A stretch of 64,000 bases of DNA from Lewinella sp. IMCC34183 (GTDB lineage Bacteria > Bacteroidota > Bacteroidia > Chitinophagales > Saprospiraceae). The notes under the pieces were generated by a model. It worked only from the letters and a program-made list of their open reading frames with translations. It had not been told where the DNA came from and did no database searches. The stretch spans positions 248,001-312,000 of the forward strand of contig NZ_QMEM01000003.1 of the NCBI RefSeq assembly GCF_003390915.1, in the 5' to 3' direction. Below, in pieces: positions 12,210 to 22,435 of the stretch; the stretch's first letter is position 1, and each line of letters opens with the position of its first letter. The position numbers and the translations under genes were made by a program.

Positions 12210-12848
12210 TTACCGCACCACCCGTTCCCCCACGTGGTTATCGCTGCCCGTAGGTACCCGTTTGCGGTGGTACTTGAGGGCATAGACGGACTTGTAGGCG
12301 CCGGGATCCCGCTTGAGCTCCCCGAGTTCGCGTTGGGTGGTGGCGGTGAGGTACTTCAGCAGGGGCTGGTCGACGGTGAAGAGGTGACCGATCGAGTCCT
12401 TGATCTTGCTGTCCCACTCGGGGTAGTGCTTATCGAAGTCGCCCGGACCGATGCGCTTGCGGCAGCCCGGCTGGTTGCAGGTCAGCTCCATCTCCTCGTC
12501 GAGGTTGAAGATGCCGTACTCGTCGGTGATCTGCTCGCCGGCCTTGATGGGGCGGATGGCCATCTCGAAGCCGTAGCCGGTGCTGATGGTGTTGCAGTTG
12601 CAGCAGTGGTTGACGTACTTGGCGAAGTCCCAGCTGACGATGCGGTCGCCGTGCTCGTCGATGTAGGAGTACTTGTCGACCACCTCCCGCATCGGGGCCT
12701 CGTGCTTAGCGTAGGCCTCGGGGGTGACGACCAGCTCCAGTCCGTCCTTGACGTAAACGATGGTGCCTTCGGGAATGTCGGCCGTGGCGAAGACGCCGTA
12801 GCCGATGGTGTCGTTGATAAACTGTAGGCGGGTATTGGGATGGATCAT
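12210..12848 (-). CDS. SET domain-containing protein (lysine methyltransferase-like)
   Basis: SET signature elements appear in order: GYGVFATADIPEGTIV (16-31), the SAM- and substrate-binding core FAKYVNHCCNCNT (about 95-107), and AGEQITDEYG (about 124-133). A Cys pair (TCNQPGCR) then follows in the place of a short post-SET region, which could hold zinc. Bacterial SET proteins transfer methyl groups to lysines; the natural substrate here is unknown. The C-terminal 60 residues are basic and helical. The protein is 212 residues, close to other stand-alone bacterial SET proteins. It is transcribed toward the DUF2809 gene with a short gap. Confidence 0.85.
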   Translation of the reverse strand: MIHPNTRLQFINDTIGYGVFATADIPEGTIVYVKDGLELVVTPEAYAKHEAPMREVVDKYSYIDEHGDRIVSWDFAKYVNHCCNCNTISTGYGFEMAIRPIKAGEQITDEYGIFNLDEEMELTCNQPGCRKRIGPGDFDKHYPEWDSKIKDSIGHLFTVDQPLLKYLTATTQRELGELKRDPGAYKSVYALKYHRKRVPTGSDNHVGERVVR

Positions 12849-12979
12849 CGGGACCGCGGGTGTTGGTTGGTTGCCGCGGGTGGTTAAAAGTAGTCTTTCA
12901 AACTATACCGGGTGAAAATTTTTCACCTCCCCGGGCCCGGGACGGAGAAAACGGTCGGACCTACGGCGACAAGCCTGAA

Positions 12980-13099
12980 AAAGGAAAAAGCCGCGGAGCA
13001 ACCCGCGGCTTTTTTAACCCTACACACATAAATTAAATCTCGAAAACGCTAACATAATAAGGCAGAGAAGACTACACACATACGCTCATAATCGTTGAT
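12980..13099 (-). ncRNA. Candidate small RNA 2, Crp/Fnr-controlled
   Basis: This is a transcription unit without a credible gene. A palindromic operator (13134-13147) and a TACATTTG -7 box (13111-13104) on the minus strand are followed by about 90 bases and then a strong Rho-independent terminator (12985-13014). The body carries an 11-base direct repeat (CTACACACATA on the plus strand at 13020-13030 and 13072-13082), which in the transcript could be two identical unpaired seed sites. Only reading frames of 5-11 codons exist. It shares layout and downstream sequence with the unit at 13193-13312, so the two look like a tandem duplication. Start and end are inferred from the boxes; they are not mapped. 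Confidence 0.6.
12985..13014 (-). terminator. Terminator of candidate sRNA 2
   Basis: A 12-bp stem (AAAAAGCCGCGG/CCGCGGCTTTTT) encloses a 6-base loop. On the minus strand it is followed by T-rich CTTTTTCCTTTTTC. The plus strand also has a T run, so it may act in both directions. Confidence 0.8.
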
Positions 13100-13103
13100 A
13101 CAT

Positions 13104-13111
13104 CAAATGTA
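13104..13111 (-). promoter_or_regulatory. -7 box (TACATTTG) of candidate sRNA 2
   Basis: TACATTTG on the minus strand is centred 33 bases from the centre of the upstream palindrome, the same distance as in candidate sRNA 1. Confidence 0.6.
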
Positions 13112-13133
13112 TGATCATCTATACCGGGAAACG

Positions 13134-13147
13134 GTGATCTGGATCAC
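13134..13147. promoter_or_regulatory. Crp/Fnr-type operator, GTGATCTGGATCAC
   Basis: This is a perfect 6+2+6 palindrome. If transcription starts 5 bases past the -7 box, its centre lies at -41.5, the classical class II activator position. Confidence 0.7.
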
Positions 13148-13192
13148 ACGACACCTAATCTTTTAGATTTTCTTGCTCCGCCAAGGCTGAAA

Positions 13193-13312
13193 AACGAAAA
13201 AGCCGCAGGAAATCCTGCGGCTTTTCGAGTGAACGTTCAACGGTATCTCGGATAAACTTGGCCTCTTAAACTAACCGGTGCGATATATTTTGCGGCGTCG
13301 TTTGCGCCTTGG
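13193..13312 (-). ncRNA. Candidate small RNA 1, Crp/Fnr-controlled
   Basis: It lies directly downstream of a Crp/Fnr regulator gene. The order on the minus strand is operator 13360-13347, TACCTTTG box 13324-13317, about 92 bases with no ATG, then a Rho-independent terminator. Lack of any start codon argues against a small protein. The terminator and the following T-rich tail (GGCTTTTTCGTTTTTCAGCC) resemble those of candidate sRNA 2 (GGCTTTTTCCTTTTTCAGGC), whereas the bodies differ. This is what is expected of duplicated sRNAs with diverged target regions. The operator sits 16 bases beyond the regulator gene's stop codon. Exact ends are inferred. Confidence 0.65.
13198..13225 (-). terminator. 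Terminator of candidate sRNA 1
   Basis: AAAAGCCGCAGGA pairs with TCCTGCGGCTTTT around a tiny loop; the minus-strand product ends in a T-rich tail (TTTTTCGTTTTTC). Confidence 0.8.
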
Positions 13313-13316
13313 CCCA

Positions 13317-13324
13317 CAAAGGTA
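13317..13324 (-). promoter_or_regulatory. -7 box (TACCTTTG) of candidate sRNA 1
   Basis: TACCTTTG on the minus strand is an exact match to the box found in front of several protein genes in this window. Confidence 0.65.
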
Positions 13325-13346
13325 AGGGGGTTGTGCGCAGGAAGTG

Positions 13347-13360
13347 GTGATCCAGATCAC
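13347..13360. promoter_or_regulatory. Crp/Fnr-type operator, GTGATCCAGATCAC
   Basis: This perfect 6+2+6 palindrome is centred 33 bases from the centre of the -7 box of candidate sRNA 1, or -41.5 from the inferred start. It differs from the 13134 site only in the two central bases. Confidence 0.7.
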
Positions 13361-13376
13361 AGAAGCCGGATTTTCT

Positions 13377-14024
13377 TTAGGCCGCCGGCGTGAGTCGCAC
13401 CAGGTTGCGCCCGAGTTGTACCGTGCCCCGCTGCTCGAGCATCTTGAGCAACCGCGAAACGGCCTCACGGCTTACGTTCAAGTCGTTGGCAATGTCGCGG
13501 TGGGTGGCGTGTACGGTCTGGTCGTCCCGCAGGGCCGCCCGCTTGCGGAGGTAGTCGTGCAGGCGTACGTCGAGTTGACAAAAGGCCACCTGGTCCACGG
13601 TGAAGATGAGTTCGTTCATCCGCCGCGAGTACGACTGCAGAACGAACTGCTGCCAGCTGGCGAAGCGCATACAGTCGACGAACAGGGAAAGCGGCAACCC
13701 GAGGATCCGGGTATCTTCCTCCGCTACGGCACGGATCTCGCTGCGTTTATCGGCCAGGCTGCAGTCGAAGGTCATGGCGCAGCTCTCACCCGCAGTGAGA
13801 TAATACAGGAACAGCTCTGCGGCGTCGTCCGACTGCCGGCTCACCTTGATGGAGCCGTCGAGCACGAGCGGCATCATCCGGAGCGGGTCGCCAAAGTCGA
13901 TAAGGGTGGCTCCGGCCGAAAAGTGATGGACCCGTCCGTGGGCGGCAATCAGGTCACGCAGGCCGGGTTCCCGAAACTGTGGAAAGCCGGCACCGATGTC
14001 CGGGGGAAGTTGTTGGGTAGTCAT
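13377..14024 (-). CDS. Crp/Fnr family transcriptional regulator (paralogue 1)
   Basis: The start at 14024 (MTTQQLPPDIG) is preferred; the longer frame adds an unlikely N-terminus. The 215-residue protein has a cyclic-nucleotide-binding-like barrel (about 10-120) with the Bacteroidota-typical LFLYYLTAGESCAMTFDC. It also has a C-terminal winged helix, THRDIANDLNVSREAVSRLLKMLEQRG (recognition helix SREAVSRLL). The Cys residues in GESC and FDC could sense redox or bind a cofactor, but the N-terminal Cys set of E. coli Fnr is absent. It is about half identical to the regulator at 21.8-22.4 kb. It lies next to cydB and directly upstream of two candidate sRNA genes bearing matching operators, so it is the leading candidate to control them. 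Confidence 0.92.
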   Translation of the reverse strand: MTTQQLPPDIGAGFPQFREPGLRDLIAAHGRVHHFSAGATLIDFGDPLRMMPLVLDGSIKVSRQSDDAAELFLYYLTAGESCAMTFDCSLADKRSEIRAVAEEDTRILGLPLSLFVDCMRFASWQQFVLQSYSRRMNELIFTVDQVAFCQLDVRLHDYLRKRAALRDDQTVHATHRDIANDLNVSREAVSRLLKMLEQRGTVQLGRNLVRLTPAA

Positions 14025-16926: not shown

Positions 16927-17541
16927 CTATTCCGCCTCCCGCGGTAGTGAACGCAATCCGTTCAGCAGTGCCCGGAACTTCCGGGTATCGTAGCGGGCCA
17001 TCCCCTCATGGGCCACCACCACCTCCCCGTCGGGCGAGATCACGTAGGTCGTAGGGAGGGTCCCGGATCGGAGTTCCTCCGGCAGATTACCCCGCAAATG
17101 ATAAACGGGGAAGTCGTAACCGTGCCGGCGTACATAGTCTACTCCCTTGGTAAAATCGGCCTCCACGTTCAGAAGCACGAAAGCAACCCGTTCGTCTCCC
17201 GCGTAATCCGCGTAGAGCGCATTGATGTTGGGCATTTCCGCTAGGCAGGGCGGGCACCAGCTGGCCCAGAGGTTGAGGAAAACTACCTTACCCGTCAGGT
17301 CACCTGCGTCCACACTGCGCCCGTCAGCATCGACCATGTGGAAATCCAGTTTTACAGTAGGCACACGCTCCTCCGCACCTGGGTCGGGCCCGTCCGTATC
17401 CGGCTGGAAAAGACCGGTAGCCAATATCCCCCGCTGCAGGAAAGCCATCACCGGCGTATGCAGCCCCGTCAGGTATAGTCCTCCAACGAGTACGATGGGA
17501 AACCACCAGGAGTCCAGCACCCACCTCAGTTTTGCAAGCAT
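16927..17541 (-). CDS. TlpA-like membrane-anchored thioredoxin
   Basis: An N-terminal membrane anchor (about 11-27) is followed by an extracytoplasmic thioredoxin-fold domain. The active site is WCPPC with Cys96 and Cys99 (LWASWCPPCLAEMPNI). The cis-Pro region is TLPTTYVISPDG. The family reduces disulfides in the periplasm, often for cytochrome or copper-site assembly or oxidative stress. Its position beside cydAB suggests a link to respiratory complex maturation, but that is inference. The ATG lies only 4 bases beyond a TAACTTTG box (17546-17553), so the mRNA is predicted to be leaderless. It is divided from cydA by about 210 bases and is probably a separate unit. Confidence 0.9.
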   Translation of the reverse strand: MLAKLRWVLDSWWFPIVLVGGLYLTGLHTPVMAFLQRGILATGLFQPDTDGPDPGAEERVPTVKLDFHMVDADGRSVDAGDLTGKVVFLNLWASWCPPCLAEMPNINALYADYAGDERVAFVLLNVEADFTKGVDYVRRHGYDFPVYHLRGNLPEELRSGTLPTTYVISPDGEVVVAHEGMARYDTRKFRALLNGLRSLPREAE

Positions 17542-17597: not shown

Positions 17598-18893
17598 TAC
17601 TACCGCGGGCGGACCGCAGGTCGGGCCCTATCCGCGTAATCCATTTTCAGTACTGCGGGCTACTGCTTCAGTTATGCGGGAATCTGCGAAAATCTGTGCC
17701 GAAGCGCAGCGCCTCTGTGACGCCGCAGGCGATCTGCGTGAAACCCTATCCCACCGGCTGCCCTTCGTTCTTTTCTCTTGATAGAAAAGAACCAAAAGAT
17801 CAAGCCTGTGCGCCCGCCTCTTGGGGGTCCGGCCCCCGGGCGTTCGCAAGGGCGGGTGGTACAAACCACGTGTGGCTTTAGTAAGTTTTGTGCCAATTGG
17901 TCATGTAGAGGATGCCGTTCGCTTATGGCAATGTGCGTCAGTACCGCGGGCGAACCTCAGGTCCGGCCCAATCTGTGTAATCACGCATCAGCATTGCGCG
18001 CCTCGCATCAGCCCTGCGGGAATCTGTGGCTATCTGTGCCCGAGCGAAGCGAATCTGTGATTAGCCGCAGGCGATCTGTGGTAAACCTTTTGTTGCGGTA
18101 ACCCACCAAGACTTGTACAGACCTATGCCTTGTAAGTGTAAGCCAATATCAGCCCGGCGAAAATCTGTGTGTAAGCGTAGCGCCTCCGTGACGCCGCAGG
18201 CGATCTGCGTGAAACCCTATCCCACCGGCTGCCCTTCGTTCTTTTCTCTTGATAGAAAAGAACCAAAAGATCAAGCCTGTGCGCCCGCCTCTTCGGGATC
18301 CAAACCCCAAACCGGCTAAAACCTGCAAACTCGCGTGGGCGCTACCGGCTTCGATCAGATACGCTCCCCGTTGCTGCTGACCAGGCACCTTGGTGCCCGT
18401 ACCGGCTCAAACAGTGCAGGTTTTTTCACGCCGGTTCGGGGCCCGGCCCCCGGGCGTTCGCAAGGGCGGGTGGTACAAACCACGTGTGGCTTTAGTAAGT
18501 TTTGTGCCAATTGGTCATGCAGAGGATGCCGTTCGCTTATGGCAATGTGCGTCAGTACCGCGGGCGAACCGCAGGTCCGGCCCAATCTGTGTAATCACGC
18601 ATCAGCATTGCGCGCCTCGCATCAGCCCTGCGGGAATCTGTGGCTATCTGTGCCCGAGCGAAGCGAATCTGTGATTAGCCGCAGGCGATCTGTGGTAAAC
18701 CTTTTGTTGCGGTAACCCACCAAGACTTGTACAGACCTATGCCTTGTAAGTGTAAGCCAATATCAGCCCGGCGAAAATCTGTGTGTAAGCGTAGCGCCTC
18801 CGTGACGCCGCAGGCGATCTGCGTGAAACCCTGTCCCGCTGTTCAAGCTCCGTTCTAATCTCGTAAAAGAAAAGAACCAAAAGATCAAGCCTA
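17598..18893. repeat. Large non-coding repeat array with a 614-base duplication
   Basis: There are no genes here. A core unit of about 150 bases (TACCGCGGGCG... to GCCGCAGGCGATCTG...) occurs three times, near 17598, 17938 and 18552. A 388-base block (17831-18218) recurs nearly unchanged at 18445-18832, offset 614 bases. A second unit with TTCTTTTCTCTTGATAGAAAAGAA (9-bp stem, CTTGAT loop) occurs at about 17700-17815 and 18170-18290, and in decayed form at 18774-18893. The units are linked end to end, alternating between the two kinds. Open frames inside (for example 17778-18101 and 18335-18715) are copies of each other made by the duplication and do not look like genes. The array separates the TlpA-like gene from the sulfur operon. 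Confidence 0.85.
18305..18441. repeat. 137-base long imperfect palindrome inserted in one repeat copy
   Basis: The ends pair: CCCC with GGGG, CCGGC with GCCGG, and AAACCTGCA (18319-18327) with TGCAGGTTT (18415-18423). An inner GGCACC/GGTGCC pair lies near the centre. The neighbouring repeat copy near 17820 lacks this segment, so it looks like an insertion, in the manner of a MITE-like element. Confidence 0.55.
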
Positions 18894-20822: not shown

Positions 20823-21425
20823 TCAGAGTTGAAGAATTAGGGGAAGGAAGAACCAGCTCATGGCTAGCCCGCCGATGAAGAAACCGACGACCGCCAGCAG
20901 CGAGGGCAGCTGCAGGTTGGACAGGCCGCTGATGGCGTGTCCGCTGGTGCAGCCCCCCGCCCAGCGGGCACCGAAGCCGACGAGAAACCCACCCAGGACG
21001 ACGACCACGAGGGTCCGCAGGGTAAACAGGGTGCCGAGGGAAAAGAGCTCGGCCGGCACGAAGGAGGACCCCGCCGTTTCCCCCGGGCCGCTGATACCGA
21101 CCGAATGAAGGTAATCCACCGTCGCGGCGGAGATCTCTACCGGCTCCGGGGAGGGAAAAACGTAGAAGGCCAGAAAGCCGCCCAGTACGGAACCGGCCAC
21201 GAAGAGCAGGTTCCAGCGCTGGGCCCGCCAGTCGATGTCAAAGAAGGCGTACTTCCGCCCCGCCCCCGCGAGGGTACAGGCGGTGCGCAGGTTGGAGGAC
21301 ACGCCGAATTCCTTACCGGCGTAGAGCGGCAGGAACATCACGGCGGCGATCACCGCTCCGCTGACGGACCAGTGCCAGGGCCCGGAAACCAGGGTATAGA
21401 ATGAGGCTAAAAATAAGTGGGGCAT
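20823..21425 (-). CDS. YeeE/YedE-family sulfur transporter, first half
   Basis: The ATG at 21425 (MPHLFLASFYTLVSG) is the likely start; the earlier TTG at 21449 lies inside the promoter box. The 200-residue membrane protein has the conserved Cys motif GARWAGGCTSGHAISG (about 160-175) and several membrane helices. With the next gene it would form a two-part YeeE/YedE transporter for thiosulfate or related sulfur species. It is the first gene of the operon. A GACCTTTG box (21447-21454) lies upstream, and the Crp/Fnr-type palindrome at 21477-21490 is centred 41.5 bases before the inferred transcription start, which suggests activation by one of the two nearby Crp/Fnr proteins. Confidence 0.9.
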   Translation of the reverse strand: MPHLFLASFYTLVSGPWHWSVSGAVIAAVMFLPLYAGKEFGVSSNLRTACTLAGAGRKYAFFDIDWRAQRWNLLFVAGSVLGGFLAFYVFPSPEPVEISAATVDYLHSVGISGPGETAGSSFVPAELFSLGTLFTLRTLVVVVLGGFLVGFGARWAGGCTSGHAISGLSNLQLPSLLAVVGFFIGGLAMSWFFLPLILQL

Positions 21426-21446: not shown

Positions 21447-21454
21447 CAAAGGTC
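21447..21454 (-). promoter_or_regulatory. -7 box (GACCTTTG) of the sulfur operon
   Basis: GACCTTTG on the minus strand lies 21 bases before the ATG at 21425 and is centred 33 bases from the operator at 21477-21490. Confidence 0.55.
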
Positions 21455-21476
21455 CGGGATGCCATTTTCCCGGTAC

Positions 21477-21490
21477 GTGATCCGCATCAC
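21477..21490. promoter_or_regulatory. Shared divergent Crp/Fnr-type operator, GTGATCCGCATCAC
   Basis: It matches the two perfect sites near 13.1 and 13.35 kb with one broken pair. It lies between the sulfur operon and the DUF202 gene and is at about -41 from the inferred start on each side (-41.5 and -40.5). Confidence 0.7.
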
Positions 21491-21795: not shown

Positions 21796-22435
21796 CCAGC
21801 AGCCGGATCTGGTTACGGCTTAGCTCGATCTCCCCTCGGTGCTCGAGGGCCTTGAGAAGACGGGAAACCGCCTCACGGCTGACGTGCAGGTCGTCCGCGA
21901 TCTCTTGGTGGGTGGTCTGGATGGTGCGGTCGCCCCGGACCTTGGCCCGTCGGCGCACGTAGTCGCCGAGCCGCACGTCGAGCTGATTGAACGTGACCTG
22001 GTCGATGGTCCGGATCAGTTCCCGCATTCGCTGGTCGTAGGCCTGCATGACGAAGTTCTTCCAGCTCTTGTACCGCATCATCCACTCGTCAAGCCGCTGC
22101 TGGGGCAGGGCCAGCAGGGTGGTGTTTTCCTCGGCTACGGCGCGGATCTGGCTCCGCTTGTCGGAAATACAACACGAAAAAGTCATCGTGCAACTTTCGC
22201 CCCGCGTCAGGTAGTAGAGGAAGAGCTCGGCCCCGTCCTCGCCCAGGCGGCTCACCTTGATGGTGCCCGTGAGGATAAGCGGCAGCATACGGACGTAACT
22301 GCCGTAATCCAGGATCACCTCCCCCTCCCGGAAGTAGCGGACCCGGCCCTGGTCGGCAATGACCTGCAACAGGCCGGGTTCGGTAAAGTCGGGGAAGTAC
22401 TGCTGTACCTCTTCGGTGGTGAGTTTATCTTCCAT
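21776..22435 (-). CDS. Crp/Fnr family transcriptional regulator (paralogue 2)
   Basis: The ATG at 22435 (MEDKLTTEEVQQYFPDF) is chosen over the longer frame. The effector domain carries AELFLYYLTRGESCTMTFSCCISDKRSQIRAVAEE, and the C-terminal winged helix is THQEIADDLHVSREAVSRLLKALEHRG. The recognition helix SREAVSRLLK is the same as in paralogue 1, so both proteins may read the same GTGATCnnGATCAC operator and compete. The overall likeness is about half of residues by eye. It sits beside the sulfur operon that carries such an operator. The signal sensed is unknown; the conserved Cys residues make a redox or sulfur signal plausible. Confidence 0.92.
   Translation of the reverse strand: MEDKLTTEEVQQYFPDFTEPGLLQVIADQGRVRYFREGEVILDYGSYVRMLPLILTGTIKVSRLGEDGAELFLYYLTRGESCTMTFSCCISDKRSQIRAVAEENTTLLALPQQRLDEWMMRYKSWKNFVMQAYDQRMRELIRTIDQVTFNQLDVRLGDYVRRRAKVRGDRTIQTTHQEIADDLHVSREAVSRLLKALEHRGEIELSRNQIRLLATGTGG

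Follow-up and report, generated by a model that had tools for sequence, protein, structure and literature searches.

FnrS of E. coli is encoded by a single-copy gene under the oxygen-sensing FNR, a 4Fe-4S protein with an N-terminal cysteine cluster, and the regulators of OmrA/OmrB and PrrF are OmpR and Fur, respectively. According to the passages on these RNAs in their sources, OmrA/OmrB and PrrF1/PrrF2 are tandem sibling small RNAs (PMC4211561), and NsiR1 of Nostoc forms a 12-copy tandem array 5' of hetF (PMC9045159). The main text of a Flavobacterium transcriptome paper reporting small RNAs mentions neither Crp nor Fnr (PMC9723704). Here, we analyzed a stretch of 64,000 nucleotides from Lewinella sp. 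IMCC34183 (contig NZ_QMEM01000003.1, positions 248,001 to 312,000), hereafter the window, where a first-pass annotation had proposed a duplicated pair of Crp/Fnr-controlled small RNA genes. No publication on this Lewinella array was found in the open-licence literature. We give a probability of roughly 65% to the reading that these are tandem sibling small RNA genes with class II Crp/Fnr promoters, controlled by the neighboring regulator or its paralogue, and that they produce pairing RNAs of a sulfide/persulfide or redox response.

The two units are on the minus strand, between a gene for a Crp/Fnr-family regulator (13377..14024, minus strand; Pfam HTH_Crp_2 and cNMP_binding; recognition helix SREAVSR), here called a-type, and a gene for a SET-domain protein (12210..12848, minus strand; Pfam SET), which is also the bordering gene in Lewinella sp. 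IMCC34191. Each unit contains GTGATCNNGATCAC, exactly 22 bases, a TAnnTTTG box, a gene-free body about 90 bases long and then a terminator, which bears out the first-pass annotation; these operators, spacings, boxes and terminators, and the conservation of the layout and of the locus, are read directly from the DNA. In unit 1, the operator GTGATCTGGATCAC (13347..13360), whose half-sites were perfect in the motif scan, is separated by a 22-base spacer from the promoter box TACCTTTG (13317..13324), and the predicted small RNA (13188..13312), with its start assumed five bases past the box and its end in the T tract, closes with an intrinsic terminator stem-loop (13197..13226) of 13 pairs, 7 of them G-C. 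In unit 2, the operator GTGATCCAGATCAC (13134..13147), also with perfect half-sites in the motif scan, stands 22 bases from the box TACATTTG (13104..13111), and the predicted small RNA (12976..13099, start assumed in the same way) includes a stem-loop (12985..13014) that likewise has 13 pairs, 7 of them G-C. All these features are on the minus strand. The operators are 14 bases long, have two non-palindromic central bases in both units, and lie 213 bases from each other. The terminators and downstream flanks matched at 37 of 47 positions, and this likeness of the 3' ends, together with the shared promoters, supports the proposed duplication, followed by body replacement or fast divergence. Elsewhere in the window, positions 17686-18892 hold direct repeats: a 300-base repeat in two copies (17815 and 18429; 98% alike, spacing 614) and a 122-base repeat in three (17686, 18157 and 18771; 96% and 84% alike).

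We then determined how common this arrangement is. There are only three perfect GTGATCNNGATCAC sites in the genome of 5,103,941 bases, and two are the operators of units 1 and 2. The third, at positions 1501-1514 of locus L001 (G000:C44:309199-309212), has a 44-base spacer before CACCTTTG, about two helix turns beyond 22 and thus in a class I-like position; the site follows FixH and DsbD_2-type genes and is 5' of a 76-residue frame that matched nothing in Pfam. The exact arrangement operator-N22-KANNTTTG was also found three times, in both units and at 21447..21490 (minus strand), where it precedes a sulfur-transport (YeeE-type) gene (20825-21425) beside a paralogous regulator. With up to 2 mismatches there were 7 such sites in the genome, versus 1 for the reversed control. 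The layout had been suggested as something to seek in relatives, and the search gave a positive answer: when 52 loci, chosen by the regulator protein alone, were scanned for GTGA-N6-TCAC followed by [TGC]AnnTTTG at spacings of 5 to 60, 25 of the 27 matches were at 22 (19) or 23 (6), with one each at 21 and 54, and the reversed box gave 4, duplicates being removed from the box counts and kept in this control. With the predicted start, arithmetic places both window operators at -41.5, and the conserved spacing supports the class II geometry that had been claimed.

In the survey of 398 family genomes, where most of the sites were read in context, 100 fetched stretches included, GTGATnnnnATCAC-N22-KAnnTTTG was present in 120 and the reversed control in 4, as counted from the table. 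Among 160 distinct exact sites, 134 had an ORF of at least 50 codons (ATG, GTG or TTG start) within 120 bases, a class that includes at least two TTG frames over terminators (IMCC34191 copy 5 and G029) and the G256 and G207 units, all treated below as RNA units; a terminator in the absence of an ORF was found at 6, neither feature at 13, and 7 were too near a contig end. Within the genus, a site ([GT]TGA-N6-TCA[AC], spacing 21-24, AnnTTTG) was found no more than 400 bases from the regulator gene for 15 of 19 proteins of the regulator's own group, one of the 15 being a broken gene copy, versus 0 of 6 proteins of a distant Crp/Fnr group. Comparatively, these counts are good evidence for action of this type of regulator at such sites, with class II activator geometry. 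Sites of the type TTGATnnnnATCAA, with the same 22-base spacing, precede other genus genes (L052, L088, L094 and L100), which suggests that a second Crp/Fnr protein uses this geometry. The regulator gene is duplicated in L129 (G125:C6:47668-48114), where the second copy carries an in-frame TAG, with a TGTGAT-type operator and box still downstream.

The paralogous regulator, here called b-type (21797..22411, minus strand; the match range, the true gene start being further upstream), is 58% identical to the a-type protein. In a tree of 23 regulators, hand-picked as nearest matches and named genus members among 120 listed of 299, with 6 outgroup rows, the window regulator, the IMCC34191 regulator and five database relatives formed the starred clade (100/99), and this seven-row a-type clade stood apart from the other genus regulators; a five-row grouping without P0005 and P0009 was neither recovered nor rejected (p-AU 0.149). 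Cysteines 82 and 88 were invariant in 22 of 22 aligned proteins. The window regulator has no cysteine before residue 82, and the N-terminal cluster of FNR was not found in it, so, judged by sequence, it does not belong to the FNR-type iron-sulfur sensors. Among 148 ORFs behind exact sites, the largest groups were metallo-beta-lactamase plus rhodanese (50), sulfate permease (11), YeeE type (10) and thioredoxin (9); these ORFs come from 173 sites, some outside the family, with three start codons allowed and spurious frames included, and the groups are single-linkage BLAST clusters, named from a member or relative run against Pfam. Since metallo-beta-lactamase/rhodanese genes are the commonest behind this layout and the regulator lacks N-terminal cysteines, we favor a sulfide/persulfide or redox signal over oxygen alone, and a specifically low-oxygen signal, as implied by the first-pass annotation, was not supported. 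Across the family, a sulfur-type regulon can be read from the sites, with metallo-beta-lactamase/rhodanese, sulfate permease, YeeE, thioredoxin and YgaP-like genes and, by eye, UspA-like and peroxiredoxin-like genes.

These data bear on the possibility that the small RNAs answer to a different, oxygen-responsive Crp/Fnr protein, with the neighbor being incidental, a reading that we regard as rather unlikely. It gains from the CRP-like recognition helix common to the a-type and b-type regulators, and from two hints that keep respiration in play, the cydAB genes upstream of the regulator and the third perfect operator, with its 44-base spacer, behind the FixH gene. However, the distant Crp/Fnr group of the genus, which had no nearby site, has another recognition helix, whereas 18 of the 19 own-group proteins show SREA[VI]S, one of the 19 being a broken 47-residue piece; moreover, in both species whose context is known, the array is accompanied by the a-type regulator. 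The comparative site evidence fits a-type and b-type proteins alike and does not discriminate between them. Of the claim that the neighboring regulator induces the RNAs, the link to a Crp/Fnr regulator was supported, and control by this protein rather than its paralogue is inferred.

The same locus was found in Lewinella sp. IMCC34191 (G129). One contig end of this genome contains five units, each made of operator, 22 bases, TACATTTG, a body of 94-95 bases and terminator, with unit spacings of 247, 247, 247 and 246, followed by a SET gene 80% identical to that of the window. The first 127 bases of a second contig are identical to the end of the array contig, probably an assembler overlap, and this contig goes on into a Crp/Fnr gene. 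Across this presumed junction, the order regulator-array-SET would be the same as in the window, with at least five units, an array longer than that of the window. The IMCC34191 bodies are 79-100% alike among copies, with the terminal copy 5 the most divergent. Since the inter-copy spacers resemble each other as closely as the bodies do, this likeness may mean recent duplication only.

The SET gene was detected in 13 of 21 genus genomes at E 1e-30, and a scan of the SET loci of the other 11 SET-bearing genomes, allowing up to 2 mismatches and spacings of 21-24, found no operator-box site. In G137, SET is directly preceded by a gene with 69% identity to the porin-like gene before the IMCC34191 regulator; in G124, a thioredoxin-like gene precedes SET and is 61% identical to the thioredoxin-like gene at 16927-17541 of the window, which is upstream of cydAB, the regulator and the array. 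Because of these differing neighbors, it looks as if two distinct gene orders had either gained or lost the regulator and array. When the whole region was searched as DNA against the 21 genus genomes, matches outside its own genome were no longer than 42 bases, the best (E 0.003) covering operator 2, and the regulator-based locus search of the genome contigs gave no match. A further palindrome, GTGAAAATTTTTCAC, is at 12912-12926 of the window, 5' of the SET gene; by eye, near-identical ones precede the SET gene in G137 and G129, with a partial one in G131. It may serve the SET gene as an operator of its own.

Next, the RNA bodies were compared. Their lengths agree (91 bases in unit 1, 90 in unit 2, 94-96 in IMCC34191), and their sequences do not. 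No similarity was found between the bodies of units 1 and 2 (shuffle p 0.70 local, 0.75 global), as the first-pass annotation had seen, and alignments with shuffles found unit 1, unit 2 and IMCC34191 bodies mutually unrelated (p 0.20-0.82); BLAST gave no relative of either window body in 21 genus genomes. The 11-base repeat CTACACACATA (TATGTGTGTAG in the RNA) was confirmed in two copies in unit 2, the first at 13072..13082 and the second at 13020..13030 (both minus strand), and a search of the whole genome placed it nowhere else. The target prediction advised for this repeat returned no perfect 11-base target. Against 40 crude start regions of the window, duplex energies were not better than those of shuffled sequences and were weaker than those of coding stretches. 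Without their terminators, the bodies did not exceed mononucleotide shuffles in folding stability (z +0.8 for unit 1 and +1.06 for unit 2; in IMCC34191, +0.3 to +0.9 for copies 1-4 and -0.8 for copy 5; +0.4 in G110 and -1.0 in G029). An Rfam search of the window gave 0 matches at gathering score, FnrS being among the families not detected; 16 sub-threshold matches (E 0.04-3.3) were all below the cut-offs, and the strongest leaned on the terminators. With bodies that bear no folding or target signal, a base-pairing function of the window units is suggested by their anatomy and not by the bodies.

The layout with its terminator was observed in four further genomes (G110, G029, G256 and G207), so that, both array genomes included, at least 6 of 398 genomes have such units. 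The G029 unit (L217) directly follows one Crp/Fnr gene and lies 184 bases before another, different one; a rhodanese-like gene was noticed by eye upstream of this pair. The G110 unit (L198) is about 0.8 kb from a metallo-beta-lactamase/rhodanese gene. In G256 and G207, which belong to one genus (L229 and L230), the unit body is flanked by an operator-22-box promoter on one side and a gene for a small membrane-protein-like product on the other. There, the body (1287-1374 in L229) is identical at 87 of 88 positions, and the surroundings have diverged, with matches at 13 of 22 in the spacer, 91 of 170 aligned columns upstream, 33 of 72 downstream to the next gene and 177 of 243 in that gene. A search with this body in the 398 genomes recovered it in these two only, apart from three weak matches of short length (E 2e-4 to 1e-3). 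As the body was kept while spacer, flanks and next gene diverged, the sequence comparison indicates selection on the RNA in this genus.

It is distinctly improbable, in our judgment, that the array mainly titrates the regulator with operator decoys, its short transcripts having no sequence-specific job. Such a function would account for operators whose half-sites are perfect both in the window and in IMCC34191, beside bodies with no trace of between-species similarity, but a decoy needs neither the box at fixed spacing nor the strong terminator, both of which are kept in complete units, nor would it explain a G256/G207 body far better preserved than the spacer.

Even less credence is given to the units not being free small RNAs, with unit 1 supplying chiefly the 3' end of the regulator transcript and its terminator, and unit 2 forming a terminator-bearing leader of the SET gene. 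The regulator stop is only 16 bases from operator 1, which makes read-through into unit 1 likely. In G029, G256 and G207, a same-strand gene follows the terminator (184, 164 and 147 bases after the box, respectively), so a leader with a terminator is also possible in these three genomes, and in four other genomes (L274, L200, L207 and L293) relatives of the gene downstream in G256/G207 stand right after the box. However, it is unit 2, and not a gene, that comes after unit 1, and an opposite-strand frame follows the G110 unit. In addition, a terminator-like hairpin, seen by eye, separates the regulator from the array in IMCC34191, and the SET gene is preceded by a palindrome of its own, which is kept in G137, where the array is absent.

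That the units encode very short peptides can be largely set aside: ATG frames are present in unit 2 (five, 5 to 22 codons long), as is a GTG frame of 34 codons, and unit 1 contains a TTG frame of 25 codons, but ATG is absent from unit 1 and from the five IMCC34191 bodies, and the copy 4 body carries a one-base deletion. In agreement with the earlier description of bodies with no real gene, no ATG frame of at least 40 codons was found within 150 bases of either window box; a 65-codon GTG frame (13271-13468) starts inside the regulator gene.

Collectively, this evidence is best explained by tandem, Crp/Fnr-controlled sibling small RNAs. A dimer of a Crp/Fnr-family protein, most likely the regulator encoded 16 bases upstream or the paralogue at 21797-22411, would bind TGTGATnnnnATCAC centered near -41.5 and activate the Bacteroidota TAnnTTTG promoter in class II fashion; each unit would then give an RNA of about 125 nt ending at its own terminator, most likely to base-pair with mRNAs of a sulfide/persulfide or redox response. 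Transcription, the choice of regulator, the signal and the pairing function are in this scheme what we infer from the sequence. Several units would raise the dose, in IMCC34191, or split the targets, in the window genome; the unrelated bodies of units 1 and 2 fit different targets, but equally fit bodies that do not matter. A more tentative proposal, possible but with the odds against it, is that of a cassette, whose shell (operator, 22-base spacer, box, slot of about 90 bases, terminator, regulator beside it) is conserved and multiplied and whose RNA payload is swapped between lineages, even between neighboring units, while staying near-unchanged within one genus; control would be kept and targets swapped, feeding a sulfur-stress regulon in Lewinella-like bacteria. 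If the main reading is true, a regulator-linked tandem small RNA array is added to Bacteroidota, with small RNAs tied to a sulfur/persulfide-type Crp/Fnr regulon through a clean class II promoter geometry, and such loci, with their countable units (one, two, five or more), offer a small system in which to study the multiplication and sequence replacement of sibling small RNAs.

Among known systems, FnrS of E. coli resembles these units as a small RNA switched on by a Crp/Fnr-family activator. OmrA and OmrB, as described in the relevant part of their source, are adjacent genes whose RNAs (88 and 82 nt) match at the 3' end and diverge in the middle, similar to the window pair; in contrast, their first 21 nt are also shared, whereas the window bodies share nothing detectable (PMC4211561). 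Both OmrA/B and PrrF also differ in belonging to a phylum other than Bacteroidota and in having other regulators. In the account that its source gives of the copies, NsiR1 is alike in its tandem copies with individual regulated promoters and in that central copies are identical and peripheral ones diverged, somewhat like IMCC34191 copy 5, but it is about 60 nt long and HetR-dependent, with a DIF1 motif, and one copy is antisense to the leader of the neighbor gene (PMC9045159). FopS and GibS of Bacteroides, compared by description only and from part of their source, are multicopy small RNAs of the same phylum with sigma-ABfr-type promoters; unlike the units studied here, they are paralogues at many loci with shared seeds, and no tandem Crp/Fnr-linked array was found in that part (PMC11697453). 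Tandem sibling small RNAs with their own regulated promoters are therefore already known, and, on sequence comparison, the unusual trait of the Lewinella locus is a constant control shell around unrelated bodies.
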